Source of the DNA: a virus
Length of the DNA: 47,447 nucleotides
Virus record (IMG/VR): IMGVR_UViG_3300027608_000053
Span: 1-47,447 of that record
Strand: one strand, 5' to 3'
Shown: in pieces, positions 5,393-40,392 of the stretch
How the letters are laid out: each line of letters begins with the position of its first letter
Position numbering within the stretch: position 1 is the first letter of the stretch
The notes under the pieces: model-generated
Databases searched by the model: none
What the model saw: only the letters and a program-made list of their open reading frames with translations
Told to the model about the DNA's origin: nothing
Made by a program: the position numbers and the translations under genes

Positions 5393-8300
5393 TTAGTAAC
5401 CACCTATAAAAGTCGTCAACAACCAGCTAGAACCATCGTATTTCAGCCCCATTATATACATTCTCGAAGCAGATAAAGATTTCGGAAATGTTATAGCGGA
5501 ATCTGAAGGTCTTTTAATAGTTGCAGGTAAATCTATCGTGTATGTTGAACTTGGAGTTAACCAAAATTCTATTTTACCGCTTTCAACAGGGGCTGAAGGG
5601 GGATTTACTGTAAGATTTGCTGTCACAGTCATTTTTTGTATACCGCCAGATAGATAGCTTGGAGTTATAGTTCCACTAGCGTTTCCGTAAACGAATGGTG
5701 GCGTTTCATATCTTTTTGCAGATATTACATCTTGAGAGCTTAAATTATTTACGAACGTGTAACATGCTGCACCAGCACATATATTCGAACCTATAATGAA
5801 AGAATCACTGTGGCTGCAAGTGCAATTGCAATGTCCTCCTAAAATTGCGGAACGATATCCACTTGCAGAGTTACGACAACCTCCACCGATAAATGTGCGA
5901 CTACCTGCAAGATTATAACCACCACCACCAACGGTAGAGCTATATCCACTTGCGGTATTACAATATCCTCCACTAACTGTTGAATTACAGCCAGAAGCAT
6001 AATTACAGTAACCACCACCAATAGTATTACCAATTCCTCCCTCAATGTGATGACATTGACCACCGCCAATAGTAGAACACGTTCCTGTTGCACAATTATA
6101 CCGACCTCCACTTATAGTGCTATAAGCACCACTGACACTATTGCAAAAACCACCACCAATAGTTGTATAAGAATTACTCGCTGTATTGCAAACACCCCCA
6201 CTAATTGTTGTATTACAGGAATTAGAACAATTACGCCAACCACCACCAATTGTAGCATTACACCCACTTATTAAATTGTAATACCCACCACTAATTGTAG
6301 AACATATACCACCATTACAGTTACAGCAACCACCCCCTATCGTAGCAGCATTATTAGCAACACAATTATACAAACCGCCACCAATAGTTCCATAACATCC
6401 TGATGATGAGTTGAAAATCCCTCCACCAATTGAACTTGATCCCAAAGCAATATAGTTACAACGTCCACCACTTATTATAGAATCGGCTGAGTCTGAGGAT
6501 ATGCAATTGTAACAACCTCCACTAACTGTAGAACCTCCACCACTTACTATATTACAATAACCACCACCAACAGTTGAATTATTACAACAAGCAATATTAC
6601 ATCCTCCACCACTAACAGTTGAGTTATTACAACATGCAACATTGTAACAACCACCACCGATAGTTGCAGTATTACCATTTACCCTATGGCAAGCACCTCC
6701 ACCTATAGTTCCACAAGTTCCACCAGTGCATACACAATTACAATAACCACCACTTATAGTTGCAGAAAAAGCATTTGAGTTATTACATAGACCACCACCT
6801 ACAGTAGCACCACAAACAAGAGCACAATTACAACAACCACCTCCAATAGTGGTAAAGTTATTTAATGCACTATTACAGCAACCTCCACCAACAGTTGAGG
6901 CGTTGCTTTCTGCTATATTTCTGTAACCACCACCAATTGTAGAATCTTGACCGGATGATATATTATTTCGACCTCCACCAACAGTGGAAAAATCACAACA
7001 TGCTATGTTTCCGCAACCTCCACCAACAGTCGAACTATTACACCATACTTGATTGCAAATCCCTCCACCGATAGAACCGTAACAACTACTTGCAGTATTT
7101 CCGAACCCTCCACCAACTGTAGAGCATTTAGAAGAAGCCAAATTCTGTTTTCCTCCTCCAACTGTTGCACCACACTCACTAGCACAATTACAGCAACCAC
7201 CACTTACAGTTGCACCACACTCACTAGCACAATTACAGCAACCACCACTTACAGTTGCACCACACTCACTAGCATAATTACAATGACCACCACCAACAGT
7301 TGCGTGACACTTAGTTGCTGAGTTGTTACATCCTCCACCAACAGTTGTTGCACACCCTGAAGCTATATTGAATACTCCTCCACCAACAGTTGCACCTCTA
7401 CTTGTTGCCGAATTACAACTACCTCCACCAACAGTTGAATATAAACCTGTAGCCGTGCTACTCAACCCACCACCTATAGTAGCATAGCAATCATCTATGT
7501 AGTTGCAACCACCACCACCTATAGTAGAATGACAATCCGTTATACAATTTCCTTCGCCGCCTCCGATACTGGAACCTTTACATGAAATATAGTTTTTATG
7601 TCCTCCGCTAATAGTTGAATTACATCCATCAGCGTAACTACTTAAACCACCACCTATAGTTGAATAACATCCAACTGCTCTATTACACACACCACCACCA
7701 ACAGTAGAGCCATAACTGCTAGAAGTATTACAAGAACCCCCACTAACTGTTGCACATTTGCCTGAAGCATTATTGCAATAACCTCCACTTACTGTTGAAC
7801 CGCTAAGATTCGTAGAATTAGTATGTCCACCACCAATAGTTGAATAACATCCATCAGCATTATTGCAATATCCTCCGCTTATAGTAGAACCACAACTTCC
7901 AGCCAAGTTGAAATATCCTCCTCCAACTGTTGCACCACATCTACAAGCAGTATTGCAATGCCCTCCACCTACAGTTGTTGCACATCTGCTGGCTGTATTA
8001 TGATAACCTCCGCTGACTGTAGAATCCCCACAACTTGCAACGTTAGAATTACCTCCACCAACAGTAGAGTATTCCCCACTTGCTGTGCTACTTAATCCAC
8101 CACCAATAGTAGAATATATATTAGAAACTATATTACATGCTCCACCTCCAATATTAGAATAATTGCAAGATACTGTATTATTGCACCCTCCTAACACTGT
8201 TGAATGGTTTCCATCTACAGTGTTATTTTGTCCTGCTAATACTGTAGAATATTCTGATGGTGTTATGGAACTGTTAACCCCACCATAAAAATATGGGGAT

Positions 8301-8605
8301 TTAGCCCAATGCACGAAAGTTCCTGTGTCAGCACTTAATGCACTGGTTACATTAACAACAGTGTCTAAGAAAGTGAGATCGCCTAACGTGCTTAAATTTC
8401 CAGTGACTAATAAATTATCAAAGGTTCCGTTCAGTCCTATTATGGATTTATTTGAACTTAAACTGCCATTTAATATGAAATCTCCTTGAAATGGAGAAGC
8501 AGGGGATGCAATCGGATCAAGAGCACTATCAGGATATCTAGGATCGCTGGAAGGCGTAGTATGATGATTGTGGCGATGAAATTTGTTATGAAATCTACTG
8601 CTCAT
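5393..8605 (-). CDS. Giant Cys-rich YadA-head-like repeat fibre protein
   Basis: A 1070-residue structural protein. Residues 1-45 are His/Pro/Ser-rich. Residues 45-115 contain fibre-type segments (LNGSLSSNKSIIGLNG, VTGNLSTLGDL). From about residue 115 to 930 it consists of some fifty 15-residue repeats of the form S-T-[VI]-[GS]-G-G-x-C-N-x-A-S-x-C-x. This is the spacing of the YadA head repeat, a trimeric left-handed beta-roll. Many repeats carry two or three cysteines at fixed positions. The last 100 residues (from about GTITPSYLSGG) form a separate beta-rich tip with PSTYTIDLPATIKRP and end in TFIGGY. I infer a tail fibre or head fibre that contacts the host surface. It shares this repeat type with the 1724-residue protein at 33287-38461. 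A GTTAAATA box lies 8 bases before the ATG. Confidence 0.8.
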   Translation of the reverse strand: MSSRFHNKFHRHNHHTTPSSDPRYPDSALDPIASPASPFQGDFILNGSLSSNKSIIGLNGTFDNLLVTGNLSTLGDLTFLDTVVNVTSALSADTGTFVHWAKSPYFYGGVNSSITPSEYSTVLAGQNNTVDGNHSTVLGGCNNTVSCNYSNIGGGACNIVSNIYSTIGGGLSSTASGEYSTVGGGNSNVASCGDSTVSGGYHNTASRCATTVGGGHCNTACRCGATVGGGYFNLAGSCGSTISGGYCNNADGCYSTIGGGHTNSTNLSGSTVSGGYCNNASGKCATVSGGSCNTSSSYGSTVGGGVCNRAVGCYSTIGGGLSSYADGCNSTISGGHKNYISCKGSSIGGGEGNCITDCHSTIGGGGCNYIDDCYATIGGGLSSTATGLYSTVGGGSCNSATSRGATVGGGVFNIASGCATTVGGGCNNSATKCHATVGGGHCNYASECGATVSGGCCNCASECGATVSGGCCNCASECGATVGGGKQNLASSKCSTVGGGFGNTASSCYGSIGGGICNQVWCNSSTVGGGCGNIACCDFSTVGGGRNNISSGQDSTIGGGYRNIAESNASTVGGGCCNSALNNFTTIGGGCCNCALVCGATVGGGLCNNSNAFSATISGGYCNCVCTGGTCGTIGGGACHRVNGNTATIGGGCYNVACCNNSTVSGGGCNIACCNNSTVGGGYCNIVSGGGSTVSGGCYNCISSDSADSIISGGRCNYIALGSSSIGGGIFNSSSGCYGTIGGGLYNCVANNAATIGGGCCNCNGGICSTISGGYYNLISGCNATIGGGWRNCSNSCNTTISGGVCNTASNSYTTIGGGFCNSVSGAYSTISGGRYNCATGTCSTIGGGQCHHIEGGIGNTIGGGYCNYASGCNSTVSGGYCNTASGYSSTVGGGGYNLAGSRTFIGGGCRNSASGYRSAILGGHCNCTCSHSDSFIIGSNICAGAACYTFVNNLSSQDVISAKRYETPPFVYGNASGTITPSYLSGGIQKMTVTANLTVNPPSAPVESGKIEFWLTPSSTYTIDLPATIKRPSDSAITFPKSLSASRMYIMGLKYDGSSWLLTTFIGGY
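5810..8255 (-). repeat. Array of about fifty 45-bp coding repeats
   Basis: The DNA under the fibre repeat is a degenerate tandem array of 45-bp units. Approximate bounds only. Most units have diverged; the block near 7164-7298 is almost identical and shows recent expansion. Confidence 0.7.
7164..7298 (-). repeat. Near-identical 45-bp tandem repeat
   Basis: Copies begin at 7164, 7209 and 7254 (period 45). The first two are identical over the full unit and the third is diverging in its second half. The unit encodes ECGATVSGGCCNCAS, which has four cysteines. This is a likely site of copy-number change by slippage or recombination. Confidence 0.8.
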
Positions 8606-15375: not shown

Positions 15376-16149
15376 TTAATCTAGGCAATATATATTAATC
15401 CATGAAGTTACATTGCTTGCTATGTTGTAATTTGTCAGCCAACTAGGAACTCCACCAGAACCATTAGTGAATCCTAACGCCCCCACCTGTGTTGTATATG
15501 GGGCAGATATAACGTTGAATAATATAATCCCTGTAGCTTCTGTGAATGTGAATCTTCCTTCTACAAAAGATGTTGAAGGCCCACCACTAACACCACTTGT
15601 AATACTATTATCACTATATGCCAAAGACCCTTCAGCAATTGAAGTGTAATTGCCACTCAGAGGGTTAAATTTTAATAGATTTAAACAGTGAGAGTTGGAA
15701 TATTGTAAAGAACTAGCAGCTTGTATGTGATAAGTCCCTGAAGATAATAAAACATATCTGGTATTTTCCTGAGCATCAACAGAAGACACTGTAACAGAAC
15801 TTAAAGATGCGAAAGAATAAGAGTGCTGGACATTATTTAAATTTCTCCAGATATTAGTTGCTGAAATATCACTTAAAACAGTTCCATTAGCTGTTACATT
15901 GTATGTATTATCATAAAGCTCAGTTAACTTCAAATCTGTGTTAGTATATGCAGTAGGATATATTTCTGTAGCTCTAAAAAATTTGTTTTTAAAGGTCGTT
16001 GAAGGGATAGTAGACGTTAAATTTATGAAATTGGTGTTTAAAGTGCATAAACTTTCATCCAAATTAGTGAAATTTGAATTTATTTTGGTTAATGAATCTC
16101 CAATACATTCTGACCCTGATATTTGCGTTGTGTAATTACATGTGCTCAT
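15376..16149 (-). CDS. Fibre-like structural protein, paralogue
   Basis: A 257-residue protein whose N-terminus (STCNYTTQI, ECIGDSL, INSNFTNLD) matches those of the neighbour at 16153-16665 and the gene at 8-547. After residue 60 the sequence is beta-rich and Ser/Thr/Asn-rich (YVLLSSGTYHIQAASSLQYS, RFTFTEATGIILFNV), like a C1q/TNF-type or jelly-roll receptor-binding domain, although I cannot assign it. It ends with WINIYCLD. It is probably a short fibre or decoration protein at the tail or head. Transcribed with the baseplate unit. Confidence 0.7.
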   Translation of the reverse strand: MSTCNYTTQISGSECIGDSLTKINSNFTNLDESLCTLNTNFINLTSTIPSTTFKNKFFRATEIYPTAYTNTDLKLTELYDNTYNVTANGTVLSDISATNIWRNLNNVQHSYSFASLSSVTVSSVDAQENTRYVLLSSGTYHIQAASSLQYSNSHCLNLLKFNPLSGNYTSIAEGSLAYSDNSITSGVSGGPSTSFVEGRFTFTEATGIILFNVISAPYTTQVGALGFTNGSGGVPSWLTNYNIASNVTSWINIYCLD

Positions 16150-16152
16150 ATA

Positions 16153-16665
16153 TTAATTTCCAAATATTGCTAAAGATATTACATCTGCATCTGCTAATCC
16201 ACCTGTAGAAATTTTACTGTTATATACAACATAAAAATCGAAAGTTGATTGCGTTTTAGCCAAAGAAGTGTTCGTATATATCACCCAAGTTTCAGCATTT
16301 ACTTGAGTTGTATTCGTATCACTAGGATTACCAACTAAGACGTAATTAGAATCTGTTAAATTGTTTGTGAACGTAACTCTATATCCTCCAGCACTCTTTC
16401 CGGGAATTCTTATAACAGAGGCAATGTTATATTGAGCATTAACCGTTAAAGTTTTGCCGTTGAAATTGATCCATGCCTTTGCTACAGATTTAGGAGATGC
16501 CATTGCAGCACTCAAAGAATTTATTTGGTTTTGTAAGGATGTAATTGTTGTCTGTTGGTTGCAAACAGTTGTATCAAGAGAAGAGAAATTATTATTTATA
16601 ACAACTCTCGAATCTCCAATACAATCAGTATCTAAAATTTGTGCAGTGTAATTACAGGTAGACAT
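16153..16665 (-). CDS. Fibre-like structural protein, paralogue
   Basis: A 170-residue protein, start MSTCNYTAQI, sharing the N-terminal CIGDS/INxNFSxLD module with the genes at 8 and 15376. Residues 30-50 look like a short coiled coil (CNQQTTITSLQNQINSLSAA). The C-terminal 110 residues form a beta-rich domain (KAWINFNGKTLTVNAQYNIA, YRVTFTNNLTDSNYVLVGN, FDFYVVYNSKI) of the kind found at the ends of phage tail fibres. A TTG two codons upstream would lengthen it, but the GATAAATA box 7 bases before ATG 16665 supports this start. The pair probably arose by duplication. Confidence 0.72.
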   Translation of the reverse strand: MSTCNYTAQILDTDCIGDSRVVINNNFSSLDTTVCNQQTTITSLQNQINSLSAAMASPKSVAKAWINFNGKTLTVNAQYNIASVIRIPGKSAGGYRVTFTNNLTDSNYVLVGNPSDTNTTQVNAETWVIYTNTSLAKTQSTFDFYVVYNSKISTGGLADADVISLAIFGN

Positions 16666-16672
16666 TTCCAAT

Positions 16673-17552: not shown

Positions 17553-19127
17553 ATGGAATACAGCTTCAATCAAATAGTAAACTCTAAAAACCCTAAGTGT
17601 AAATTACATTCAATCTATAAAAAAATCGTAGAAACGACAAATTTTTTGAATGAATACACATCATTTAAGATTAGATGGTGGTATTTCTCGAAAAATCTTA
17701 CGGAATCTGTTAAATGCTTGTGTGGATGTGGTTTACCCCTAAAAAATCCGATAAAAACTAAGTATTTGCAAGGACATTCTAATAGATCAGACGAAGTTAA
17801 AGCGAATAAAGAGAAATCTGTGATGAAAAATTATGGAGTTGCTAATATATCACAAATAGAAGATGTTAAAGCCAAGAAAAAAGAAACCATGCTTAAAAAT
17901 CATGGGTGCGAAACTCCATTCGACAGAGATTTTATAGTCCCTATTTGGATTGAGAAATATGGTGTAGATAATCCATCAAAATTGCAAAACGTGAAAGATA
18001 AAATAAGTGAACATGCAATAAAATACCAGAAAGAAAATTTGGAACAACGAACTCAATCATTTTTAAACAATTTCTTCGACGGTAAAATAATGTCAGATAG
18101 ATTATCAAACGTTAAACCTTTATTCACTAAAGAACAATATAAAGGAGTTAATGTTGTATATCCGTTTGAATGTTTGACTTGTGGTAATACGATTCATAGC
18201 AACTTAGACGATGGGAAAGATGTTAGATGCTTTAATTGTAATCCTAATCCTTCCAAATAAATTTTGGAATCGGAACTTTTAACATTCTGTAAGAAGTTTT
18301 ATCCAAATCTAGTCGAAAATGATAGACAGATTATACAGCCTTTAGAATTAGATGTTTATATTCCAGATATTAAAACTGCTATTGAAGTTAATGGAATATA
18401 TTGGCACACTGAACAATACGGCAAAAATAAAACATATCACCTCAATAAAACAGAAAAATGCTTAGACAAAGATGTTAGGATCATCCACATTTTTGAGGAT
18501 GAATTGGTGGAGAAGCCTGAAATATGTAAGGCTAGATTGAAACACATCTTCGGAAAAATAAATAGAAATGTATATGCCCGAAAATGTGAGATTAAACTCA
18601 TATCTCCCAAGTTAAAGGGTAAATTCATGGACAAATATCACATACAAGGAAATGATAAATGTAAAATAAGTTTAGGTTTATATTATAAAAACCGTTTAGT
18701 CTCTGTTATGACATTCTCATCTCTTAGAAGTTCGTTGGGGTATAAAGAAACCAAAGAAAATGTGTGGGAGTTGAGTAGATATTGTAGCATTTTCCATTTC
18801 AACGTTGTAGGTGGAGCAGGTAAATTATTGAAACATTTCGAAAACACTTATAATCCAAAAACTGTAATTTCTTATGCTGATAGAAGATGGTCAAACGGAA
18901 ATCTTTATAGTAAAATCGGTTTCATATTCGATAAATTCACTGAACCCAACTATTGGTATGTTAAAAATGATAGGAGATACCACAGATTCAATTTCCAAAA
19001 GCATTTATTATCAGAAAAATTATCGATTTTTGATTCGAATCTTTCAGAGAAGGACAATATGAACAATAATGGATATCACAGAATTTGGGATTGTGGACAT
19101 TGTAAGTTTATAAAGAACTATTATTAA
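17553..19127 (+). pseudogene. Homing-type endonuclease interrupted by one in-frame stop
   Basis: Two reading frames, 17553-18260 and 18261-19127, lie in the same frame and are separated only by TAA at 18258-18260. Together they span about 525 codons and align along their length with the intact 551-residue endonuclease at 19108-20763. The first part holds Cys clusters (CLCGCG, CLTCG, CFNC) and repeats of the KYGVDNPSKLQ type, probable DNA-binding modules. The second holds a VSR/EDxHD-like nuclease core (LDVYIPD, IEVNGIYWHTE, then YH) and a GNAT-like C-terminal domain (KYHIQGNDKCKISLGLYY, WELSRYC, SYADRRW, HRFNFQKH). The second part has no ATG before its catalytic residues; only a TTG at 18264 could start it. 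It is therefore either a recent nonsense pseudogene, a readthrough gene or a two-subunit enzyme. A consensus promoter precedes it. Confidence 0.8.
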
Positions 19128-20763
19128 TTTTCTTAACGAATTTATAGTTTCCACAGTCCCATATCCTGAAGAATCCGTTGTTAATCATATTCTGCTTCTC
19201 CGTTAATGATTCATCAAACGTTTCTAGCTTATCTTTCAATAAATGCTTCTGGAAATTGAATCTATGTAACCTGTTGATGTAGTCTTTAGTGTAATAATAG
19301 TTAGGTTTTGTTATTTTAACTAGTTCGAAACCTATTTTGTCGTAAACTGTATCTCCTTCCAATTTAGCCCATCTACGATCAGCATACGATATGATTTCTT
19401 TTGGTTTATAATTGGTTTCAAAGTGCTTTAAAAGCTTACTTGCAATTCCAGTTATGTTGAAGTTGAAAACCGTGCAGAATCTACTGAGTTCCCAAGTGTC
19501 TTCAATAGATTTATTGTATCCTAGTGCCTTTCTCAATTTGCAAAACGTCATAACGGCAACCAATCTATTGTTATAATATGCTCCTAACTTGATTTGAGCC
19601 TTGTCACTTCCTTGTATATGATATTTATTAAGAAATTTGGAGGACGTGTTTTTTGTTATTTCCCTTATCTCGCATTTACGAGCATATATACGCCTTTTTA
19701 CAAGCTTTAGTATGTGCTTTATACGAGATATCACCAATTTCTTTTTGTGATATATCTCATCAGCGAATATTTGTATTAATCTGATGTTCTTTTTAGCACA
19801 TTCTTCTGTTTTTTTGATGTGGTATTTTTCATCTCGATGGTTTTTCTCGCTATGGAAATATAAACCGTTAATTTCTATCCCTATGTTATGCTTAGGTAAA
19901 AGGAAATCTATCTCGTGATAATCATCTAACGTTTTTCTGTCTCTGGCTTTAAATTCTATTTCATTTTTTTCTAATAGTTCTGCTATTGGACGTTCAATAT
20001 CTGAAAATTGCATGTCGCACTTAAAACATTTTGGCCAATGTGTTAATTGTCTGTTATAATAGTTGTAGTAATGGTTGTTACATCTCTTACACAACCATTT
20101 ATAATGTTTACTAGGCCCACCACCATTGAAATCGTCGAAAGTAAATGCTGGAACAGTCAAATCCTCAAATCTTTTATATGAATCAAATGCTGATTGCAGT
20201 TTGTTCTTTCTTGCTAATTCTCTGTTAGAATTTTGAATTATGTTTCCGCTCTTTAAACGTTCTTTATATTCTTCGGTTTGGTTGTAATGTTTCTTACCAT
20301 AACGAGACATATGTGTTTCTTCCATTTTCTGTTTAATTTTTTCAGATTGGAATACGTTTTCCGTTCCATATTTTTCGATGCATGTGGATTTTCTTTTGTT
20401 TGTTGCTTTTTCGTTCTTTTTAGGACATTTACAAGAACAAAAAGTATTGAAACTACATCTAGGTTTATTATATGTTAATGTTGCACCACATTCACACTTA
20501 GGATATTCTGTTAAATCGTTTTTGAATATGTATATTGCTTCTCCTCCACACATTTTCGAGAAATTGAAATTTCTTTGTGCTAGAAAGTATTTCACATGAT
20601 CCATATAATTTCTATTCCTTAGAAATGAAGAACCTCCTATTTCGTCTATTTTATTTTTTAGATATGTAGAATCAAAAGTAATGTTAAAGACTGAAGACAT
20701 GTTTTCGGCCATATCATAACTATAGTGTCCTCTTTTTCTAGTGTTTGTGGTAGAGCAATTCAT
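19108..20763 (-). CDS. Intact homing-type endonuclease (VSR/EDxHD-like)
   Basis: A 551-residue protein. Residues 85-115 contain a Cys-rich module (CECGATLTY, CSCKC). Residues 125-165 hold two KYGTENVFQ/RYGKKHYNQ repeats like those of phage homing enzymes, and residues 225-250 another zinc-like cluster (CKRC, CFKC). The nuclease core is at about 255-320: IERPIAELLE, HEIDFLLP with D286, IGIEINGLYFHSE with E297 and H304, then YH at 314-315. This is the pattern of the VSR-like EDxHD family. Residues 350-540 form a GNAT-like domain shared with the neighbour (NKYHIQGSDKAQIKLGAYY, WELSRFC, SYADRRW, HRFNFQKH). It probably cuts DNA to spread its own gene; genomic target unknown. It lies next to the major capsid gene and converges on the split paralogue with a 20-base overlap. 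Confidence 0.85.
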   Translation of the reverse strand: MNCSTTNTRKRGHYSYDMAENMSSVFNITFDSTYLKNKIDEIGGSSFLRNRNYMDHVKYFLAQRNFNFSKMCGGEAIYIFKNDLTEYPKCECGATLTYNKPRCSFNTFCSCKCPKKNEKATNKRKSTCIEKYGTENVFQSEKIKQKMEETHMSRYGKKHYNQTEEYKERLKSGNIIQNSNRELARKNKLQSAFDSYKRFEDLTVPAFTFDDFNGGGPSKHYKWLCKRCNNHYYNYYNRQLTHWPKCFKCDMQFSDIERPIAELLEKNEIEFKARDRKTLDDYHEIDFLLPKHNIGIEINGLYFHSEKNHRDEKYHIKKTEECAKKNIRLIQIFADEIYHKKKLVISRIKHILKLVKRRIYARKCEIREITKNTSSKFLNKYHIQGSDKAQIKLGAYYNNRLVAVMTFCKLRKALGYNKSIEDTWELSRFCTVFNFNITGIASKLLKHFETNYKPKEIISYADRRWAKLEGDTVYDKIGFELVKITKPNYYYTKDYINRLHRFNFQKHLLKDKLETFDESLTEKQNMINNGFFRIWDCGNYKFVKKINNSSL

Positions 20764-27841: not shown

Positions 27842-27902
27842 ATATTTATTTAATCTTTTCGTTTGATTTTGTTGTGATATCAGATTAAGTTTGAGATTAA
27901 AT

Positions 27903-28835
27903 ATGGAACAATATGTAATCTTTCACGTAGATGGTGGTATCGGAAAAAATATCGCTGCGACTTCAGTATGCAAATCAATATCAGAAGAATATCCTGACAG
28001 GAAGTTAGTTGTAGTCACTGCTTGGCCTGAAGTTTATCTTCACAACCCAAAAGTTTTCAGGGTTTACAGATTTGGGAATCTTCCTTATTTCTATGATGAT
28101 TATATTAAAGATAAGGATACTAAAGTTTTCAGATTAGAACCATATCACGCAGAAGACATGTTATATAGGAGGAAACATTTAGTGGAAGTTTGGTGCGACC
28201 TGTTTAAAATTCCATGTAGAGGTATAAAACCAGAAATATATTTGACGGAAAGAGAATTGTTATTTGCTGAACGTGCAATTAATAAAGATGGCCCTATTTT
28301 ATTGATACAACCTTTCGGTGGTGCTGAAAATCAAACACATCCTTATTCATGGTCTAGAGATTTACCACCCGCATTTGCACAAGAAATAGTAGATTCTGTA
28401 AAAGGTAATTTCAGCAAAATTCTTCACATCAGAAGAGATAATCAACCACAGTTAAACAATGTAATAAATGTTTCAGATAGCTTGAGAAATTTGTTTTGTT
28501 ATATTTATTTATCAGATAAAATATTGGCTATAGATTCTATGGTTCAACATGCTGCCGCTGCATTTAAAAAACCTGCTACTGTAGGATGGATAACAAATTC
28601 ACCTGTTGTGTTTGGATATTCTATACATGATAATATTTTACCAACAGAACAGAAAAGTTTCAGACATTTCATTGATAGCTACTTGGAGGAATCTGATTGG
28701 GTGGGAGGAAGATTCCATGAATGTCCATATAACAATTTAAACGAAATATTTAACAAGGATAGGTTTGTTCAATCTATTTTAGGTTCTTCTAATGAGTTAT
28801 TATTCGACATTAAAATCCCATCTTCCATTATATAA
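27903..28835 (+). CDS. GT9-like (heptosyltransferase-type) glycosyltransferase
   Basis: A 310-residue GT-B type protein resembling glycosyltransferase family 9. The N-terminal half begins YVIFHVDGGIGKNIAATSVC (residues 4-23), the acceptor-side Rossmann entry typical of ADP-heptose transferases, followed by KLVVVTAWPEVYLHNPKVFR. The C-terminal half has ILLIQPFGGAENQ near 140 and LSDKILAIDSMVQHAAAAFKKPATV near 205-230, the region that in GT9 binds the nucleotide sugar. Donor and acceptor are unknown: it could modify host surface glycans or a phage structural protein. ATG 27903 was preferred over a TTG 12 bases upstream. The sulfotransferase follows after 3 bases, so the two genes form one unit on the strand opposite to the head and tail genes around them. 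Confidence 0.75.
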   Translation: MEQYVIFHVDGGIGKNIAATSVCKSISEEYPDRKLVVVTAWPEVYLHNPKVFRVYRFGNLPYFYDDYIKDKDTKVFRLEPYHAEDMLYRRKHLVEVWCDLFKIPCRGIKPEIYLTERELLFAERAINKDGPILLIQPFGGAENQTHPYSWSRDLPPAFAQEIVDSVKGNFSKILHIRRDNQPQLNNVINVSDSLRNLFCYIYLSDKILAIDSMVQHAAAAFKKPATVGWITNSPVVFGYSIHDNILPTEQKSFRHFIDSYLEESDWVGGRFHECPYNNLNEIFNKDRFVQSILGSSNELLFDIKIPSSII

Positions 28836-28838
28836 TCG

Positions 28839-29663
28839 ATGAAAAACATATTCTTCAATTCTTCAATGCCTAGAAGCATGTCAACACTGTTTCAATGTAT
28901 TTTAAATCAAAATCCTACTATAACAGCAACACCAACCGATCCTGTTTTGGAGTATCTATATGGAGCAAGAATAAACTATACAAATACACCAGAAGTTAAA
29001 GCGATAGACCCCGATTTAGCTTTGAAAACTTGGAGAGGTTTTTGTCTAGGTGGTTTAAATGGTTATGCAGAAGCTTATAGTGATAGACCTAATGTATGCA
29101 TTAAAACTCGTGGAGGGACAATACATTATAGGTGGTTCGAATCTTTCATGCCTTATAAACCTAAAATGATTTGCATGGTTAGAAACTTGAAGAGTATAAT
29201 ATCTTCAATGGAAAAAATACATAGAAAAAATCCAGAAAAACATCAACCGATTCAAAATCATGCTAATATGACAGGAACAACAACACCGAAAAGAGTTGAT
29301 TCTTGGATTTCGTCTCCACCAGTTGGTTTAGCTTTGGAAAGATTGCAACAAAGCTTTTTAGAGGGTATTAACAAAGAGGTTTTATATGTTAGAGCAGAAG
29401 ATTTAACATCTAATCCTAATAAAGAAATGGAAAAGGTATATAACTATTTAAATTTGCCAGTGTTTAGACACGATTTTGAAAATGTAGAACAAACTATAAA
29501 GGAAGATGATTCGGTGTATGGATTAACACCTGACCTACATACAATTAAAAATGTTGTATCTCCTGTTACTCCTGATTATAACGATATATTAGGAAAAGAT
29601 GTATGCAAATGGATAGATTCTACTTTTGCATGGTATCAAAAACCTTTTGGTTATATTTCTTAA
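28839..29663 (+). CDS. Sulfotransferase-family protein
   Basis: A 274-residue P-loop sulfotransferase-like protein. Residues 5-20 (FFNSSMPRSMSTLFQCIL) are the 5'-phosphosulfate-binding loop that recognises PAPS, and ICMVRNLKSIISSM (111-124) is the 3'-phosphate-binding region with R115 and the following Ser residues. VLYVRAEDLTSNPNKEMEKV then YNYLNLP near 190-215 is the usual C-terminal element. The enzyme would transfer sulfate from PAPS to a hydroxyl or amine. With the adjoining glycosyltransferase it suggests making or capping a sulfated glycan, whether on the virion or on the host surface. No PAPS-synthesis gene is visible here. Its stop overlaps the stop of the opposing beta-helix gene by four bases. 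Confidence 0.8.
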   Translation: MKNIFFNSSMPRSMSTLFQCILNQNPTITATPTDPVLEYLYGARINYTNTPEVKAIDPDLALKTWRGFCLGGLNGYAEAYSDRPNVCIKTRGGTIHYRWFESFMPYKPKMICMVRNLKSIISSMEKIHRKNPEKHQPIQNHANMTGTTTPKRVDSWISSPPVGLALERLQQSFLEGINKEVLYVRAEDLTSNPNKEMEKVYNYLNLPVFRHDFENVEQTIKEDDSVYGLTPDLHTIKNVVSPVTPDYNDILGKDVCKWIDSTFAWYQKPFGYIS

Positions 29664-33286: not shown

Positions 33287-36200
33287 TTATATAATATCAA
33301 ACAATCTTAAATATTTAATGTTCCCACCTACGATAACTTGTATGAATGTATTTAATGCTGTAACTGTTGAAGTTGCTGTAGAAGTTATTCCTGTAAATCT
33401 AGTTCCACTAATATCTACATATTGAGTTGAACTGATTGTTCCATACACAGTTAGATTTCCATTTAATGTCCCTCCAGTTAATGATAGGAAGTTAGTAGGA
33501 GGATTTGACCATACAGAACTGTTCGAGTTTACTGTAGTATATGTGCTATTCCATTTAGTAGAATTTCCTGTTGCATCATATACCAAACCTTTACTGGATA
33601 TATTGTTTACATATGTAAAGTCAACTTGAGAAGCTGATAAGTTAGAACCTAATATGAAAGTGTTCGAAAACCCTTTAGTATCGTTCCAATATCCACCTAA
33701 AATGCCAGAATAAGTTCCACTTGCATTATTATTACTTCCTCCTCCAATAAATGATGCACCTCCACTAGCACGATTTGATATACCACCTGATATAATTGAT
33801 GCGCCGGAAGAAACAGTATTACAACATCCACCTCCAATAGTTCCACAATAGGCGGCACTTATAGTATTACACGATCCTCCACTGATTAATCCAACATCTG
33901 AAAAGCGAATAATATTTCGGATTCCCCCACCAATAGTTGAATTGCATGAGTAGTCTATACAATTATTACATCCACCTCCAATTGTAGAGAAACATGCGGT
34001 TATATTGTTTCCATATCCTCCACTAACAGTTGAACCGTAACCCCAACCACCACCGAGCCGATCTTCCCCTACATAATAATCACCTCCAGATATATTATTA
34101 CCACTTCCTCCACCAATAAAACTTGGAAATATACAATAACAATATCCATTACTGTAGCTACTTACACTATTAGAGTAACCTCCAGCTACAGTATCATATG
34201 ACATACATGCACTATTATTTTTTCCTCCACCAACTGTTGTATATTCCCCCCAAACACTGTTAAAACATCCCCCACCAATAGTTGAAGCATTAGCAGAATT
34301 TGAACAATTACATGCTCCTCCACCAATTGTCGCATTAATAACTGAAATCATTCTATTATTATAACCACCGCCAATTGTTGAATTGCAGCCAGTTCCATAC
34401 ATACAATTGCAGCATCCACCACTGATAGTTGACTGATTATTGGTAGAAAGAGTATTACATGAACCACCACCTAATGATCCACCATTTGATAAAGTTATAT
34501 TATTTGATAGACCACTTCCAATAAATGAATATGGGCTGGCAGATATGAAACTACTTACACCATTTACAATTGTTGAATTTATTGAAGTGGCAATGCAGTT
34601 TTGATTTCCTCCTATAGAAGAAAAGTCTGAGGCTGATCCCTGCGGCGAAATAATATTTCTACATCCTCCAAATATTGTGGCGCAACTAGCAGACAATGAA
34701 TTTGAAACCCCGCCTAAAATTGAAGAGGATATTGCACTTGCTGCTATGGTATTATTAGTGCCTCCTAAAATGGATGAACAACCACCTCTTATTATATTAC
34801 CACAACCACCTAATATAGTGTTTAAGTTGCACCCACATATACTGTTGGATATACCACCTAAAATGGAACTAGTGCATGCTGATAGTGATATTGTATTGGA
34901 ACTCCCTCCACCGATAAAATTACAATTTCCACATATTGTATTATTCCATCCACCAATAATAGAAGAGTAGTTGGAATAATTACTTCCATTGCCGAAAACG
35001 ATATTACAATAACCTCCACCTATAAAATCAGCACAGCCAGTAATAGTTGAACCATATCCACCGCCGATGAATCCATATGCGCTACAATTGGTGTTTCTGC
35101 ATCCTCCAAGAATGGATGCACAATTGGCAATAACACAATTTCCTATTCCTCCTCCTATTATGCTTGCTGTAACTATATCAATTCTGTTACAAAATCCTCC
35201 ACCTATGAAAGCACATGAACCACCATTACTGCTGCTTAATCCTCCTACTATAGATGAAATTGCGCCAGATGCACAATTGCAAGTTCCTCCACCTATAAAA
35301 GATGTGGAGCCACCTGTGCAAATACAGTTGCATTGTCCACCTACTATCGTTGCACAAGAACCAACATTACAGCTACTTAATCCACCAACTATGGAAGAAT
35401 AACTTGCACCTACTATGTTAGAATTTCCCCCTCCTATAAACCCACCAATAGTTCCTGAACCGATACAGTTACAAAGACCTCCACTTATAGTAGCACAATT
35501 TCCGCACATTGTATTACGAACACCACCACCTATAGTAGAACCTCCACCACCGTTGCAGTTTCTATATCCACCACTTATAGTAGAACATGCACCTGTCATA
35601 TTACTGCTCACCCCACCGCTTATAGTAGAATAAGTTCCAGTATTACAGTTGCATTGACCACCACCTATAGTAGCACTTCCACCACTGTTGCAGTTTCTAT
35701 ATCCACCACTTATAGTAGAACAGTTACCAGTATTCTTACTACTTAAACCACCACTTATAGTAGAATAACCTCCAGTATTACAGTTACATCCACCACCACT
35801 TATAGTTGCACATTGACCAGTATTACAGTTACAGCATCCACCACTTATAGTAGAGGAAGTTCCAGTATTGCAGTTTTTATATCCGCCGCTTATAGTAGAG
35901 GTATTTCCAGAATTGTAATTGCATGATCCTCCACTTATAGTAGAACACGTTCCAACACTACAATTGCAAACTCCACCACTTATAGTAGAACCTGCGGCAG
36001 CACTTGCAATGTTTCTATATCCTCCACTTATAGTTGCACATGAACCAGTGTTTAAATTGCAAGCACCACCACTTATAGTAGCACTTGTTCCACAATTTAT
36101 ATTACAATTTCCACCACTTATAGTAGAATAGGTTCCTAAGCAGCTTGTGTTTCTATATCCACCGCTTATAGTATTACATGCAGCACAGTTTTGGTGACAT

Positions 36201-38461
36201 TTTCCACCACCTACAGTAGAATGTGAAGTATTTACTAAATTACATTCTCCTCCTGATATATTGGAACTATATCCGCTTGCTGTATTGCATAAACCGCCTC
36301 CAATAGTTGAACAATTTCCGCTTGCAGTGTTACAACCTCCACCACTGATTACAGATGCCACACCACAGGCGACTTGAGTATTAGAGGTTCTTGTCTTCTG
36401 CCAATCTGTAGCGTAATTACCTCTATTATCTCCACCGACAGCAGTTCCATCAGCAATTTGAGCTACAGTTGCACCAGAACCACTAGACGCCAAAACAGCA
36501 CTTCTATTTGTAGAGCCATATGCACAAATTCCACTATATTCAGTTCCAGTTAATGTTCCTGTTAATGAAATGAATGTATTGCTTATTGTTAACGTCCCAT
36601 TTGCACTTGGATTCGGTGTTCTAAGCCAATTTGCACTATTTGAGTTTAAAGTAGTTTGTGTATTGACCCAACTAGCACTATTTGAGTTTAAAGTTGTGTA
36701 TGCTGAATTTCCTCCAATCCAACTAGCACTATTTGAGTTTAAAGTAGTTTGTGTATTGACCCAATTAGCACTGTTTGAGCTTACAGTTGTAAATGTGTTA
36801 ACCCAACGAGCACTATTCGAGTTTAAAGTTGTGTATGCTGAATTTCCTCCAATCCAACTAGCACTATTTGAGTTTAAAGTAGTTTGTGTATTGGCCCAAT
36901 CAGCACTGTTTGAATTTAAAGTTGTGTATGCTGAATTTCCTCCAATCCAACTAGCACTATTTGAATTAACAGTTGTAAAACTGCTAATTCCTTTATTTAT
37001 GTCTGGATAGAAAACGTTTATTAAATCTGTATCCGCACTTAAAATCTTTCCGGTTGTAAATATATCACCAGTAGAACTTATTTCTCCAACAACTGTCAAT
37101 GTTTTGTTAGGGGATGAAGTCTTTATACCTATTACACCATCATTAGATGGGTTTAGAACGTTTCCTATATGAAGTGCTTCGATACCATCTCCATCGTAAA
37201 ATGATGCAATATCTCCAGCACCAGCACCTTGATATACGTATAATGCTGGCCCAATACCATTATTTACTATTCTGACTGCTGTAGTAGTAGTAAAAGTAGT
37301 ATTAACAAAATATGCGCCACTTAATGCTGTTATAGAACCATGAATTGTTAAATCTCCATATAAATTTCCCCCTGTCAATTTTAAATATGTAGAATTTGCC
37401 GAATCTTGAGTAACCCAACTAGCACTATTTGAGTTTAAAGTAGTATATGCTGAATTTCCTCCAATCCAACTAGCACTATTCGAGTTTAAAGTAGTTTTGG
37501 TGTTGACCCAATCAGCACTATTTGAGTTTAAAGTAGTGTATGCTGAATTTCCTCCAATCCAATCAGCACTATTTGAGTTTACAGTCGTAAACGTATTTTG
37601 CCAATTTGAACTTAAAGCTTTTAAATCGGTTCCTTGATAATTCCAATCAGCACTATTTGAGTTAACAGTCGTAAATGTATTTTGCCAATTTGAACTTAAA
37701 GTTTTTAAATCGGTTCCTTGATAATTCCAATTAGCACTATTTGAGTTTACAGTCGTAAATGTATTTTGCCAATTTGAACTTAAAGCTTTTAAATCGGTTC
37801 CTTGGTAATTCCAATCAGCACTATTTGAGTTTACAGTCGTAAATGTATTTTGCCAATTTGAACTTAAAGCTTTTAAATCGGTTCCTTGGTAATTCCAATC
37901 AGCACTATTTGAGTTTACAGTCGTAAATGTATTTTGCCAATTAGAGCTTAAAGTTTTTAAATCGGTTCCTTGGTAATTCCAACTAGCACTATTTGAGTTT
38001 ACAGTTGTAAATGTATTTTGCCAATTTGAACTTAAAGCTTTTAAATCAGTTCCTTGATAATCACCTCCAATCCAACTAGCACTATTTGAGTTTACAGTCG
38101 TAAACGTATTTTGCCAATTTGAGCTTAAAGTTTTTAAATCGGTTCCTTGGTAATTCCAACTAGCACTATTTGAGTTTACAGTTGTAAATGTATTTTGCCA
38201 ATTTGAGCTTAGAGCTTTTAAATCGGTTCCTTGATAATCACCTCCAATCCAACTAGCACTATTTGAGTTTACAGTCGTAAATGTATTTTGCCAATTAGAT
38301 GAAACGCCAGAAACGAAACTTCTTATTACGACATCTTTTATGTTATCTATTAAACTTCCATCCCCTAGGATAAAGCCGTGAGCACTAACAGTTTGAGCGA
38401 TTAGGGTAGTCGCACTAATCGTTCCTGTTATTGTTATATCATCTAAAAACTCTAAAGCCAT
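33287..38461 (-). CDS. Giant 1724-residue tail-fibre-like protein
   Basis: The largest gene in the window. Residues 1-45 are an attachment segment (FLDDITITGTISATTLIAQT). Residues 50-350 contain tandem 28-residue repeats, two 14-residue Trp units each (SSNWQNTFTTVNSNSADWNY then QGTDLKAL). Residues 360-480 include GDLTIHGSITALSGAYF and NKTLTVVGEISSTGDI, typical of fibre shafts. A second Trp-repeat block follows (about 490-620). Residues 690-1590 are more than fifty 15-residue YadA-head-like repeats (STISGGxCNxNxGxC) with many cysteines. The C-terminus returns to the Trp-repeat style and ends with TALNTFIQVIVGGNIKYLRL. It is probably the long tail fibre shaft. A CATAAATA box lies 11 bases before the ATG. 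Confidence 0.75.
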   Translation of the reverse strand: MALEFLDDITITGTISATTLIAQTVSAHGFILGDGSLIDNIKDVVIRSFVSGVSSNWQNTFTTVNSNSASWIGGDYQGTDLKALSSNWQNTFTTVNSNSASWNYQGTDLKTLSSNWQNTFTTVNSNSASWIGGDYQGTDLKALSSNWQNTFTTVNSNSASWNYQGTDLKTLSSNWQNTFTTVNSNSADWNYQGTDLKALSSNWQNTFTTVNSNSADWNYQGTDLKALSSNWQNTFTTVNSNSANWNYQGTDLKTLSSNWQNTFTTVNSNSADWNYQGTDLKALSSNWQNTFTTVNSNSADWIGGNSAYTTLNSNSADWVNTKTTLNSNSASWIGGNSAYTTLNSNSASWVTQDSANSTYLKLTGGNLYGDLTIHGSITALSGAYFVNTTFTTTTAVRIVNNGIGPALYVYQGAGAGDIASFYDGDGIEALHIGNVLNPSNDGVIGIKTSSPNKTLTVVGEISSTGDIFTTGKILSADTDLINVFYPDINKGISSFTTVNSNSASWIGGNSAYTTLNSNSADWANTQTTLNSNSASWIGGNSAYTTLNSNSARWVNTFTTVSSNSANWVNTQTTLNSNSASWIGGNSAYTTLNSNSASWVNTQTTLNSNSANWLRTPNPSANGTLTISNTFISLTGTLTGTEYSGICAYGSTNRSAVLASSGSGATVAQIADGTAVGGDNRGNYATDWQKTRTSNTQVACGVASVISGGGCNTASGNCSTIGGGLCNTASGYSSNISGGECNLVNTSHSTVGGGKCHQNCAACNTISGGYRNTSCLGTYSTISGGNCNINCGTSATISGGACNLNTGSCATISGGYRNIASAAAGSTISGGVCNCSVGTCSTISGGSCNYNSGNTSTISGGYKNCNTGTSSTISGGCCNCNTGQCATISGGGCNCNTGGYSTISGGLSSKNTGNCSTISGGYRNCNSGGSATIGGGQCNCNTGTYSTISGGVSSNMTGACSTISGGYRNCNGGGGSTIGGGVRNTMCGNCATISGGLCNCIGSGTIGGFIGGGNSNIVGASYSSIVGGLSSCNVGSCATIVGGQCNCICTGGSTSFIGGGTCNCASGAISSIVGGLSSSNGGSCAFIGGGFCNRIDIVTASIIGGGIGNCVIANCASILGGCRNTNCSAYGFIGGGYGSTITGCADFIGGGYCNIVFGNGSNYSNYSSIIGGWNNTICGNCNFIGGGSSNTISLSACTSSILGGISNSICGCNLNTILGGCGNIIRGGCSSILGGTNNTIAASAISSSILGGVSNSLSASCATIFGGCRNIISPQGSASDFSSIGGNQNCIATSINSTIVNGVSSFISASPYSFIGSGLSNNITLSNGGSLGGGSCNTLSTNNQSTISGGCCNCMYGTGCNSTIGGGYNNRMISVINATIGGGACNCSNSANASTIGGGCFNSVWGEYTTVGGGKNNSACMSYDTVAGGYSNSVSSYSNGYCYCIFPSFIGGGSGNNISGGDYYVGEDRLGGGWGYGSTVSGGYGNNITACFSTIGGGCNNCIDYSCNSTIGGGIRNIIRFSDVGLISGGSCNTISAAYCGTIGGGCCNTVSSGASIISGGISNRASGGASFIGGGSNNNASGTYSGILGGYWNDTKGFSNTFILGSNLSASQVDFTYVNNISSKGLVYDATGNSTKWNSTYTTVNSNSSVWSNPPTNFLSLTGGTLNGNLTVYGTISSTQYVDISGTRFTGITSTATSTVTALNTFIQVIVGGNIKYLRLFDII
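33650..36350 (-). repeat. 45-bp coding repeat array of the giant fibre
   Basis: Degenerate 45-bp units encoding the GGG-type repeats; approximate bounds. The most uniform stretch is about 35560-36130, where units share a CCACCACTTATAGTAG-like core. Confidence 0.65.
37581..38290 (-). repeat. 84-bp tandem repeats in the giant fibre gene
   Basis: Near-identical units with period 84 (for example the same word starts at 37581 and 37665); a few copies have an insertion coding IGGD. Each unit encodes 28 residues, that is two 14-residue Trp repeats. Sequence conservation is high enough for recombination. Confidence 0.85.
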
Positions 38462-38472
38462 TGTATGTTAAT

Positions 38473-38480
38473 TATTTATG
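38473..38480 (-). promoter_or_regulatory. Late-promoter-like box CATAAATA
   Basis: CATAAATA on the minus strand ends 11 bases before the ATG at 38461 of the giant fibre gene. Confidence 0.5.
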
Positions 38481-39621
38481 TTATTATAATGACTTTATAC
38501 GAACTTAATGTTGGTGGTGTGTTGAAATGTATCAATGTATTATTAGCGTCTATTGTTTGAATTGAAGGATATACTAATGAGCCAGTAACATAGTTATATA
38601 CCTGTGATAGTGTATTTAACGATGAAAAACCGTGAGTTATAGTGTAATCAGTGTTTATGTTATCTCCTATTACAGTTACATTCTTTCTAACATTTGCTGT
38701 TATATTAGTTAATCCGCTTCCATCTCCATAAAAATTTGTTGCACTTATGCTATATGATGACAAACCATAGAAAACGCCTAAATCTGCGTATAACGTATGG
38801 TCTATATAAACATTGTTGAAAAAATGTGCGGTTGTTGCACTTAAAGAAATAGCTGAAAGGTTATATACAGTTAAAGCGGGGACATATTGTGTTATTGGAG
38901 TAGCGGTTAAACTTCTAGACTCCCAATATGTTATATCTTTGGGTATATTTGGGTCATATCCTGTAATAGCAGACAGTGCATAAAAGTTTGCGTTGATAGT
39001 GAATATTAAATGTTCTCCATTCCCTGCATTTGCATCTGGCAAGGCTTTATATAACCATCCTTTGATAGTAAAGGAAGTATCACCAGCAACTCTAGCAACT
39101 GTTCCTGATGCAATATCTTGAGGATAATTCAATGTTATGTTATTAGACCATTCCACTTGACTTCTAATCTCGAAATCGTCCATATCTGGAACTCTCCAAG
39201 ATAATACGATATAAGGATCAAAATACGGAGCAAAATTCGATATTATTTGATCCATATCCTTCTGATAACGTGTTAATATAGAAAAATTTACAGTTATGTT
39301 GATAGGAATAGGTTGAGGCATCTTTCCAGCAATTCGGGGGTTTGAAGTTTTATATGTCGATCCCTGTAACTTGTTAAAAACTCTGCTATTATCTCTTGAA
39401 ATGCCTCCTATAGAAATTGCGACAACTGGAAGTTGAATATTTTGAGCTTTATCTGTTAAATCTAATAGAACTCTTTCTTTTGGACTATAAACCATTCTAA
39501 CTTGGATTTTATCTTGGGCAACTCGGTCTTTATTATATCTTTTGACTGTAATATCGTCCATAGCAGCAATAAATTGTGCCATTAAGTTTTCAATCTCGAA
39601 CTGAAACGATTCGTTCTTCAT
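38476..39621 (-). CDS. gp15: gp15-like tail terminator fused to a fibre-like C-terminus
   Basis: A 381-residue protein. Residues 1-225 match the T4 gp15 tail-completion/sheath-stabiliser family: VRMVYSPKERVLLDL near 45, LPVVAISIGGISRDNSRVFN near 65, PINITVNFSILTRYQKDMDQ then IISNFAPYFDP near 105-135, and SFTIKGWLYK near 185 (T4 gp15 has LSIFTRYEDDMFQIVEQILP then YFQPHF). Residues 235-381 are an added domain of fibre type (LSATTAHFFNNVYIDHTLYA, FYGDGSGLTNITANV, then TDYTITHGFSSLNTL and an end in YKVIIIT). This extension is absent from the second copy at 39694-40392. The fusion would place a fibre-like element at the head-proximal end of the tail. A CTTAAATA box is 11 bases before the ATG. Confidence 0.75.
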   Translation of the reverse strand: MKNESFQFEIENLMAQFIAAMDDITVKRYNKDRVAQDKIQVRMVYSPKERVLLDLTDKAQNIQLPVVAISIGGISRDNSRVFNKLQGSTYKTSNPRIAGKMPQPIPINITVNFSILTRYQKDMDQIISNFAPYFDPYIVLSWRVPDMDDFEIRSQVEWSNNITLNYPQDIASGTVARVAGDTSFTIKGWLYKALPDANAGNGEHLIFTINANFYALSAITGYDPNIPKDITYWESRSLTATPITQYVPALTVYNLSAISLSATTAHFFNNVYIDHTLYADLGVFYGLSSYSISATNFYGDGSGLTNITANVRKNVTVIGDNINTDYTITHGFSSLNTLSQVYNYVTGSLVYPSIQTIDANNTLIHFNTPPTLSSYKVIIIT

Positions 39622-39647: not shown

Positions 39648-39697
39648 AGATAGAATCTTAACTTTAACATCTTCAGTGGCTACATTAAAATGGTTAT
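39648..39697 (-). pseudogene. Duplicated remnant of the 3' end of the cca gene
   Basis: These 50 bases match 40414-40463, the last codons of the CCA-adding enzyme gene, with seven mismatches counted by eye. They lie between the two gp15-like copies and mark the junction of a tandem duplication of about 770 bp. The stop of the shorter gp15-like gene is created inside this segment. Confidence 0.85.
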
Positions 39698-40392
39698 AAA
39701 TTTTCCAAATATGTTCTATTTGGGTCATATCCTATTATAGAAGATAATGAATAAAAGTTTGCGTTGATAGTGAATATTAAATGTTCTCCATTCCCTGCAT
39801 TTGCATCTGGTATGGCTTTATATAACCATCCTTTAATTGTGAATGATGTGTCACCAGTAACTCTAGCAACTGTTCCTGATGCAATATCTTGAGGATAATT
39901 AAACGTTATGTTATTAGACCATTCCACTTGACTTCTAATCTCAAAATCATCCATATCTGGAACTCTCCAAGATAATACGATATAAGGATCAAAATATGGT
40001 GTAAAATTCGATATTATTTGATCCATATCCTTCTGATAACGTGTTAATATAGAAAAATTTACAGTTACATTGACAGGAATAGGTTGAGGCATCTTTCCAG
40101 CAATTTTGGGGTTTGATGAACGATATGTAGAACCTTGTAACTTGTTGAATACCCTACTATTGTCTCTTGAAATGCCTCCTATAGAAATTGCGACAACTGG
40201 AAGTTGAATATTTTGAGCTTTATCTGTTAAATCTAATAGAACTCTTTCTTTTGGACTATAAACCATTCTAACTTGGATTTTATCTTGGGCAACTCGGTCT
40301 TTATTATATCTTTTTACTATAATATCGTCCATAGCAGCAATAAATTGTGCCATTAAGTTTTCGACCTCGAACTGAAACGATTCGTTCTTCAT
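39694..40392 (-). CDS. gp15: gp15-like tail terminator, short copy
   Basis: A 232-residue protein nearly identical to residues 1-226 of the neighbour at 38476-39621; I count about 14 substitutions by eye, all conservative (I/V, K/R, A/S, A/T). It keeps all the gp15-type segments (SPKERVLLDL, FSILTRYQKDMDQ, SFTIKGWLYK). After GYDPN the sequence changes abruptly to RTYLENL and stops, because the frame runs into the duplicated cca remnant. It therefore lacks the fibre-like domain. It is close to the length of T4 gp15 (272 residues) and may be the functional hexameric tail terminator, while the longer copy is specialised, or the reverse. A CTTAAATA box lies 7 bases before the ATG. Confidence 0.8.
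   Translation of the reverse strand: MKNESFQFEVENLMAQFIAAMDDIIVKRYNKDRVAQDKIQVRMVYSPKERVLLDLTDKAQNIQLPVVAISIGGISRDNSRVFNKLQGSTYRSSNPKIAGKMPQPIPVNVTVNFSILTRYQKDMDQIISNFTPYFDPYIVLSWRVPDMDDFEIRSQVEWSNNITFNYPQDIASGTVARVTGDTSFTIKGWLYKAIPDANAGNGEHLIFTINANFYSLSSIIGYDPNRTYLENL

Follow-up and report, generated by a model that had tools for sequence, protein, structure and literature searches.

Cysteine-covered beta-roll fibers in a fragment of a T4-like phage and in other uncultured phages

Extracellular surfaces normally avoid unpaired cysteines. We observed that, in many uncultured phages and in at least two repeat folds, cysteine occupies roughly one in ten of the free surface positions of the fiber shaft, and that the bacterial relatives nearly exclude it. 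In the stretch of DNA analyzed here (47,447 nt; IMG/VR record IMGVR_UViG_3300027608_000053; hereafter the window), this proportion reaches 23%. The UspA1-type fold is already known; what is new here is that beta-solenoid fibers are covered with cysteines in many uncultured phages, which was not found in the literature that we searched. We tentatively interpret these cysteines as a dense set of separate thiols on the fiber surface rather than fixed pairs arranged in a ladder, with a GT9-like glycosyltransferase and a sulfotransferase as the candidate capping pair.

Judging from its gene content, the window is a fragment of a T4-like myovirus. It encodes the T4-type major head protein gp23 (phrog_138; 3.8e-86), portal protein gp20 (phrog_213; 8.5e-108) and head maturation protease, and matches to PF16724 (3.9e-23) and PF11649 (4.9e-7) indicate the T4-type gp15 sheath stabilizer and neck protein. 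Genes for PhoH and a homing endonuclease are also present. A BLAST search of 50,697 public phage records, in which low-complexity masking limits the search with repeats, yielded no cultured relatives of the first fiber (W1) or of its ends. Two contigs carry relatives of W1, one of them 76% identical and with the same neighboring genes (L001), the other 40% identical (L002). W1 and its parts are located as follows.

5393..8605, minus strand: W1, phage fiber of 1070 aa with ~54 UspA1-type repeats and 88 cysteines (open reading frame and repeat count)
8243..8605, minus strand: N-terminal domain of W1, residues 1-121, no cysteine, MSSRFHNKFHRHNHHT..., common to fibers with different shafts
5759..8242, minus strand: repeat array of W1, residues 122-949, UspA1-type left-handed beta-roll with all 88 cysteines (fold modeled for 6848-7297)
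5393..5758, minus strand: C-terminal domain of W1, residues 950-1070, no cysteine, an end common to an unrelated fiber in contig L005

When the repeats of W1 are anchored on [VI]xGG, 47 of the ~54 tandem repeats are spaced by exactly 15 residues and all 47 present glycine at positions 3 and 4. The cysteines represent 8.2% of the protein and 10.6% of the repeat region, relative to a mean of 1.16% for the other proteins of the window (binomial tail for the repeat region ~10^-53). Each repeat contains from zero to four cysteines (1.6 on average): among the exact repeats, five have none, 21 have one, 13 have two, four have three and four have four. By register they fall in columns, as the earlier note had described, at position 6 (49% of the exact repeats), 12 (40%), 5 (21%), 8 (17%), 11 (15%) and 10 and 13 (9% each); the eight conserved positions (1-4, 7, 9, 14 and 15) never carry one. 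Seven register positions therefore permit cysteine, with no fixed set of columns. The description of about fifty YadA-head-like repeats of 15 residues is correct as to the repeats, but not as to two to four fixed cysteine positions in each of them.

The N-terminus of W1 is histidine-rich and conserved (MS[SN]RFHNKFHRHNHHT) and also starts the fibers of two contigs with quite different shafts (L003 and L004), which suggests that this domain is probably the virion-attachment end. The C-terminal domain is probably the fiber tip.

The window encodes a second cysteine-rich fiber, W2, which is absent from the earlier note and was recovered by searching the window with W1.

33287..38461, minus strand: W2, second fiber of 1724 aa, coiled 'SSNWQNTFTTVNSNSASW' repeats followed by UspA1-type repeats
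33659..36355, minus strand: cysteine-rich repeat array of W2, residues 703-1601 (repeat and cysteine count)

Nearly all cysteines of W2 (77 of 79) are located inside its UspA1-type repeats, which are of the same kind as those of W1. We read W1 and W2 as long fibers of the T4-like phage.

The shafts of W1 and W2 are UspA1-type left-handed parallel beta-rolls. The YadA-head-type fold proposed in the earlier note was thus recovered, specifically in its 15-residue UspA1 form. W1 matches the UspA1 structure 3PR7 using phmmer (E = 3.8e-21) and the repeat profile, searched against the PDB, matched UspA1 at 2.3e-39. An AlphaFold model built from a 33-row alignment including bacterial repeats (pLDDT 98.2; pTM 0.90) superposes on the 3PR7 crystal structure with an rmsd of 0.7 Å over 150 residues (Z 23.1; TM 0.92), followed in the structure matches by YadA, BpaC, CbpF and BoaA. 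A first model, from a 16-row alignment (pLDDT 84), was dropped: it lay ~3 Å from right-handed and ~8 Å from left-handed solenoids, in conflict with the homology to UspA1, and was probably wrong-handed. Against the Pfam family UspA1_rep (PF18792), W1 scores 16.4 bits, below the curated cut-off of 27. A Foldseek search of BFVD indicates that proteins of uncultured phages and giant viruses share the fold, the closest of them without a named function.

The shaft of W1 resembles the UspA1 head of Moraxella catarrhalis (3PR7, 3NTN) and other YadA-type heads (YadA, BpaC, AtaA, EibD, CbpF) in its fold, its 15-residue layers with an extra glycine, its conserved core and its asparagine and glycine positions. 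In contrast to these heads, W1 is a phage virion protein of ~54 layers without a membrane anchor, and its variable positions carry the cysteines that bacterial arrays essentially lack. We found no C-terminal YadA membrane anchor among the Pfam matches of W1, whose C-terminus is a phage-fiber-type domain, which sets it apart from trimeric autotransporter adhesins. The ice-binding beta-roll of Lolium (3ULT) is likewise left-handed with a similar layer length (Z 16.9 to the W1 model), but it is a plant antifreeze protein and W1 presents no evidence of ice binding.

In the register published for YadA-type heads, the glycine at position 8 is fully conserved, UspA1 has an extra glycine, and residues 5 and 7 belong to the core; charged residues at position 2 face outside, and residue 10 of the neighboring chain is near residues 2 and 3 (PMC9543794). 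The layers recur every 4.8 Å in parallel register (PMC9543794). When the repeats of W1 are mapped onto UspA1 and BpaC (PMC9543794), every cysteine-bearing position appears to be solvent-facing and every cysteine-free position appears to be a glycine, a core residue or chain-interior. Faster substitution at the cysteine-bearing positions agrees with this exposure: between the well-aligned parts of W1 and its 76% identical relative, dN/dS is 0.31 at these positions and 0.04 at the others. From the family and its published structures we infer that the fiber is a homotrimer, the model being that of a single chain.

The earlier note had suggested that the cysteines could form disulfide or metal ladders. 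In the disulfide version, cysteines that are stacked or located on neighboring chains would oxidize after release from the cell, which would staple and stiffen the trimer. Indeed, the two positions that carry cysteine most often, 6 and 12, correspond to positions 10 and 2 of BpaC, which are close between neighboring chains (PMC9543794), and 59 of the 76 cysteines of the exact W1 repeats have at least one candidate neighbor by register. There is also a precedent in Agrobacterium phage Milano, whose virion contains a proven disulfide network: its sheath, tube, baseplate and fiber bases have 1.4-2.1% cysteine in conserved, defined pairs (PMC10811340). W1 is similarly a cysteine-enriched virion protein of a contractile-tail phage, but the 10.6% of cysteine in its repeat region is unpaired by sequence.

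We analyzed the co-occurrence of cysteines relative to shuffles that keep the column content within each array. Across 91 phage arrays, cysteine pairs were slightly rarer within one repeat than the shuffles predict (z = -2.4) and neither enriched nor depleted between neighboring repeats (z = +0.65). Pairs that could bridge neighboring chains at the groove (position 6 with 12 or 13, in the same or the adjacent layer) gave no signal (z = -0.3). Stacking in the same column was not higher for cysteine (z = +1.8) than for tyrosine (z = +2.7) or serine (z = +2.9), and local duplication of repeats therefore explains the stacking of cysteines. Comparing all position pairs at layer offsets of 0-3 (~170 tests) yielded only a few weak outliers with small counts (11 to 10 at +1, 10 to 10 at +1 and 13 to 10 at +3). 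Conservation was ordinary as well: 66% of cysteines are kept between W1 and L001, relative to 67% of serines, 69% of glycines and 62% of tyrosines, and cysteine exchanges with Tyr, Ser, Asn, Leu, Gly, Arg and Phe. Co-conserved cysteine pairs such as those of the disulfide-stapled proteins of Milano were not found. Moreover, disulfides are not known to be common between parallel-register layers 4.8 Å apart, which is the geometry of this shaft. These sequence comparisons show cysteines placed independently of one another. Since signals of pairing and conservation are both absent, the idea that a fixed ladder of disulfides or metal sites explains the pattern finds no support, and we consider the disulfide ladder unlikely. 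This independence and the exchange of cysteine with Tyr, Ser, Asn, Arg and Gly lead us to read the cysteines as separate thiols.

To see how widespread the feature is, we scanned viral contigs, and a single genome for each bacterial or archaeal species, with an unbiased DNA pattern that imposes no residue at any of the seven positions. Among the matches listed, at least 89 phage arrays (at least 1329 repeats) contain 0.60 cysteine per repeat and at least 56 of them have 0.5 or more, whereas at least 110 bacterial arrays (at least 1073 repeats) contain 0.025 and none reaches 0.5. The difference between the arrays listed is significant among non-redundant arrays (P = 2e-26; Mann-Whitney test) and when limiting the comparison to GC < 0.42 (P = 1e-6; Mann-Whitney test). 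The arrays of the window are the richest among the phage matches listed (1.59 cysteines per repeat), and the T4-type gp23 gene was found on the same fragment in 10 of 36 contigs with cysteine-containing arrays. The rarity of cysteine in ordinary YadA-type repeats, asserted in the earlier note, is confirmed by the bacterial arrays. Its statement that no phage fiber with this feature had been described is not contradicted by the literature searched, in which we found no paper on cysteine-rich phage fibers or on S-glycosylation of phage fibers, but the feature itself is common in uncultured phages.

We compared these frequencies to those expected from codon-position base frequencies. Cysteine occupies 27% of the five main positions of W1 relative to 11% expected (2.5x), and the excess is 3.1x in W2. 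In cysteine-rich phage arrays, 12.4% was observed and 6.6% expected (1.9x); in bacterial arrays, 0.2% was observed and 5.5% expected (~0.03x). Phages thus exceed their base composition in cysteine and bacteria purge it. Bacterial adhesins pass through an oxidizing periplasm, which is plausibly the cause of the purge. Base composition alone accounts for part of the cysteines but not for all of them. Targeted hypermutation of the DGR type was also rejected, as the share of NNY codons at the variable positions is similar in cysteine-rich and cysteine-poor phage arrays.

These ratios would be compatible with a non-adaptive scenario in which a fiber that folds in the reducing cytoplasm and is never exported escapes the purging of cysteine that bacterial adhesins undergo at free surface positions, while AT-rich, TGY-prone codons let cysteine drift upward. 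Phage arrays of high GC-content are indeed poor in cysteine, and cysteine swaps freely with one-step neighbors such as Tyr, Ser, Gly and Arg. However, simple tolerance does not predict an excess of two- to three-fold over the codon expectation when other phage proteins contain only ~1.2% cysteine. The same pattern was observed in an unrelated phage repeat of 17 residues (NTTGxxNxFIGxxAGxx), with cysteine essentially only at variable positions, and there the cysteine content is two-peaked: 19 of the 69 loci have 0-1.1% and the other 50 have 1.8-9.7%. In addition, cysteine-rich and cysteine-free paralogues coexist in one phage, with 0.79 and 0.00 cysteine per repeat in two neighboring beta-roll fibers of L120 and 1.0, 0.56 and 0.0 in three fibers of L397. 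Cysteine content is therefore specific to the gene and not a trait of the genome, which a genome-wide tolerance leaves unexplained, and we regard this scenario as improbable. The cysteine-free paralogue of L120, coming from the same phage, constitutes a natural control.

Less likely still is a thiol surface that binds Cu, Zn, Fe or the thiols of hosts or particles and aids host capture: it shares with the iron-binding fibers of T4 (gp37, HxH) and alterophage R22Y, with their histidine columns, the idea of metal bound by side chains of a fiber trimer, as known or proposed for T4 and marine phages (PMC11705849), and the N-terminus of W1 is rich in histidine, but the cysteines are not clustered into repeated sites, no recurring metal-site motif was seen, and the positions carry cysteine with no histidine enrichment at the variable positions in the comparison of W1 and L001, so that Zn/Fe sites with histidine were rejected.

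Under the reading of separate surface thiols, the cysteines, which are confined to the seven variable, presumably solvent-facing positions of a presumably trimeric beta-roll shaft, would each act singly, as a reactive group or a point of attachment on the surface of the fiber. Links through disulfides or metals would arise only incidentally, at places dense enough to bring two thiols close. In oxic water, a virion displaying over 250 free thiols on each fiber trimer would probably become cross-linked, both with itself and with other virions, which makes capping attractive, and the cysteines are possibly glycosylated or otherwise capped. If so, this would represent a system of fiber glycosylation and sulfation not seen in the literature searched; if the thiols are free or cross-linked, the virion surface would present an unusual redox or adhesive character. 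The best candidates for capping would be a GT9-like glycosyltransferase and a sulfotransferase, which are often encoded beside such fibers. In the window, however, this cassette lies apart from both fibers, at a distance of ~19 kb for W1 and 3.6 kb for W2.

27891..28835, plus strand: GT9-like glycosyltransferase, with homologues 39-53 bp from cysteine-rich fiber genes in other phages
28839..29663, plus strand: P-loop sulfotransferase, paired with the GT9-like gene, with a profile nearest to protein-tyrosine sulfotransferases

The tentative assignment to GT9 relies on homologues: 14 of the 27 GT9-like homologues match PF01075 (best E = 4.6e-5), with no direct match by the protein of the window, and the match to 1psw had E = 0.33. 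Known heptosyltransferases of the GT9 superfamily hyperglycosylate repeat adhesins (TibC/TibA and AAH/AIDA-I), TibC modifying serine and possessing a four-cysteine iron finger (PMC4358343). The phage cassette is similar in that the GT9-like gene is in many cases the immediate neighbor of a gene for a beta-solenoid repeat adhesin. However, the 27 homologues have a single nearly invariant cysteine in place of the iron finger of TibC and AAH, and the phage pair adds a sulfotransferase. In a more specific and rather doubtful version, the fibers would carry S-linked sulfated sugars, with cysteine as the acceptor of the GT9-like transferase and the sulfotransferase finishing the glycan, as a phage counterpart of AIDA-I/TibA glycosylation.

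The distribution of the cassette is suggestive of a link with cysteine, although one confounded with phage lineage. The GT9-like gene was found in 39 of the 65 LPBR contigs with 0.2 or more cysteine per repeat and in none of the 13 below (P = 7e-5). For the 17-residue fold, the cassette is present in 20 of 50 cysteine-rich loci and 0 of 19 cysteine-poor loci (P = 4e-4), and this difference was also observed at GC below 0.4 (20 of 45 and 0 of 14, respectively; P = 1e-3). In a first sample, however, residue composition with and without the GT9-like gene barely differed (cysteine, 9.3% and 8.7%). A strict requirement in either direction, of the cassette for cysteine or of cysteine for the cassette, is ruled out: 9 of the 74 arrays at loci picked by the cassette have less than 0.2 cysteine per repeat, some of them none, and in the marine virus AG-345-L05 the GT9-like gene adjoins fibers of ordinary cysteine content. 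Two cysteine-poor fibers (L026 and L046) have a distant sulfotransferase next to them, unaccompanied by a GT9-like gene. Finally, the single array from a bacterial genome with a notable cysteine content among the matches listed (L241; 0.44 cysteine per repeat) has a GT9-like gene 39 bp away.

The beta-solenoid fibre genes of uncultured phages are frequently neighboured by a pair of genes encoding a GT9-like glycosyltransferase and a sulfotransferase, and relatives of the first of these genes are encoded in at least 578 viral contig stretches. At two other loci, fibre genes with Cys-poor UspA1-type arrays lie 15-42 bp from a distant sulfotransferase gene, and the GT9-like gene is absent near these fibre genes.

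Sulfotransferase loci
Window 27891-29663 (+): GT9-like glycosyltransferase and sulfotransferase pair; also at loci L084, L052, L019, L069, L071, L099, L030, L122 and L056
L026:4949-5761 and L046:2894-3694: distant sulfotransferase (31-35% identity)

A Cys-containing UspA1-type array followed by a GT9-like gene was also observed on a contig from a bacterial genome record (L241:3536-7998). This stretch, which is adjoined by a glutamine synthetase-like gene, is perhaps of phage origin.

Layers of the form GGLSSxxxG, with a substitution at the conserved Asn, recur in both fibres of the window: at residues 167-181, 317-331 and 377-391 of the 1070-aa fibre and in several repeats of the 1724-aa fibre. 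A second phage fibre repeat, the 17-residue NTTGxxNxFIGxxAGxx (L321, a 1461-aa ORF, and L414-L533), is likewise Cys-rich in many phages, and its Cys content across phages follows a two-peaked distribution.

Elsewhere in the window, a T4 gp15-like tail sheath stabiliser is duplicated in tandem (38476-39621 and 39694-40392); the two copies have almost identical N-termini and contain no Cys. Small proteins with conserved Cys and the common N-terminus MSxCNxTTQI...CIGDSLxxINxNFxxL (8-547, 15376-16149 and 16153-16671), also encoded on the contig carrying a 76%-identical relative of the 1070-aa fibre (L001), are probably short fibre or adaptor proteins. Finally, the T4-type major head gene is adjoined by a homing endonuclease gene (19108-20763; phrog_3339, 8.5e-107).
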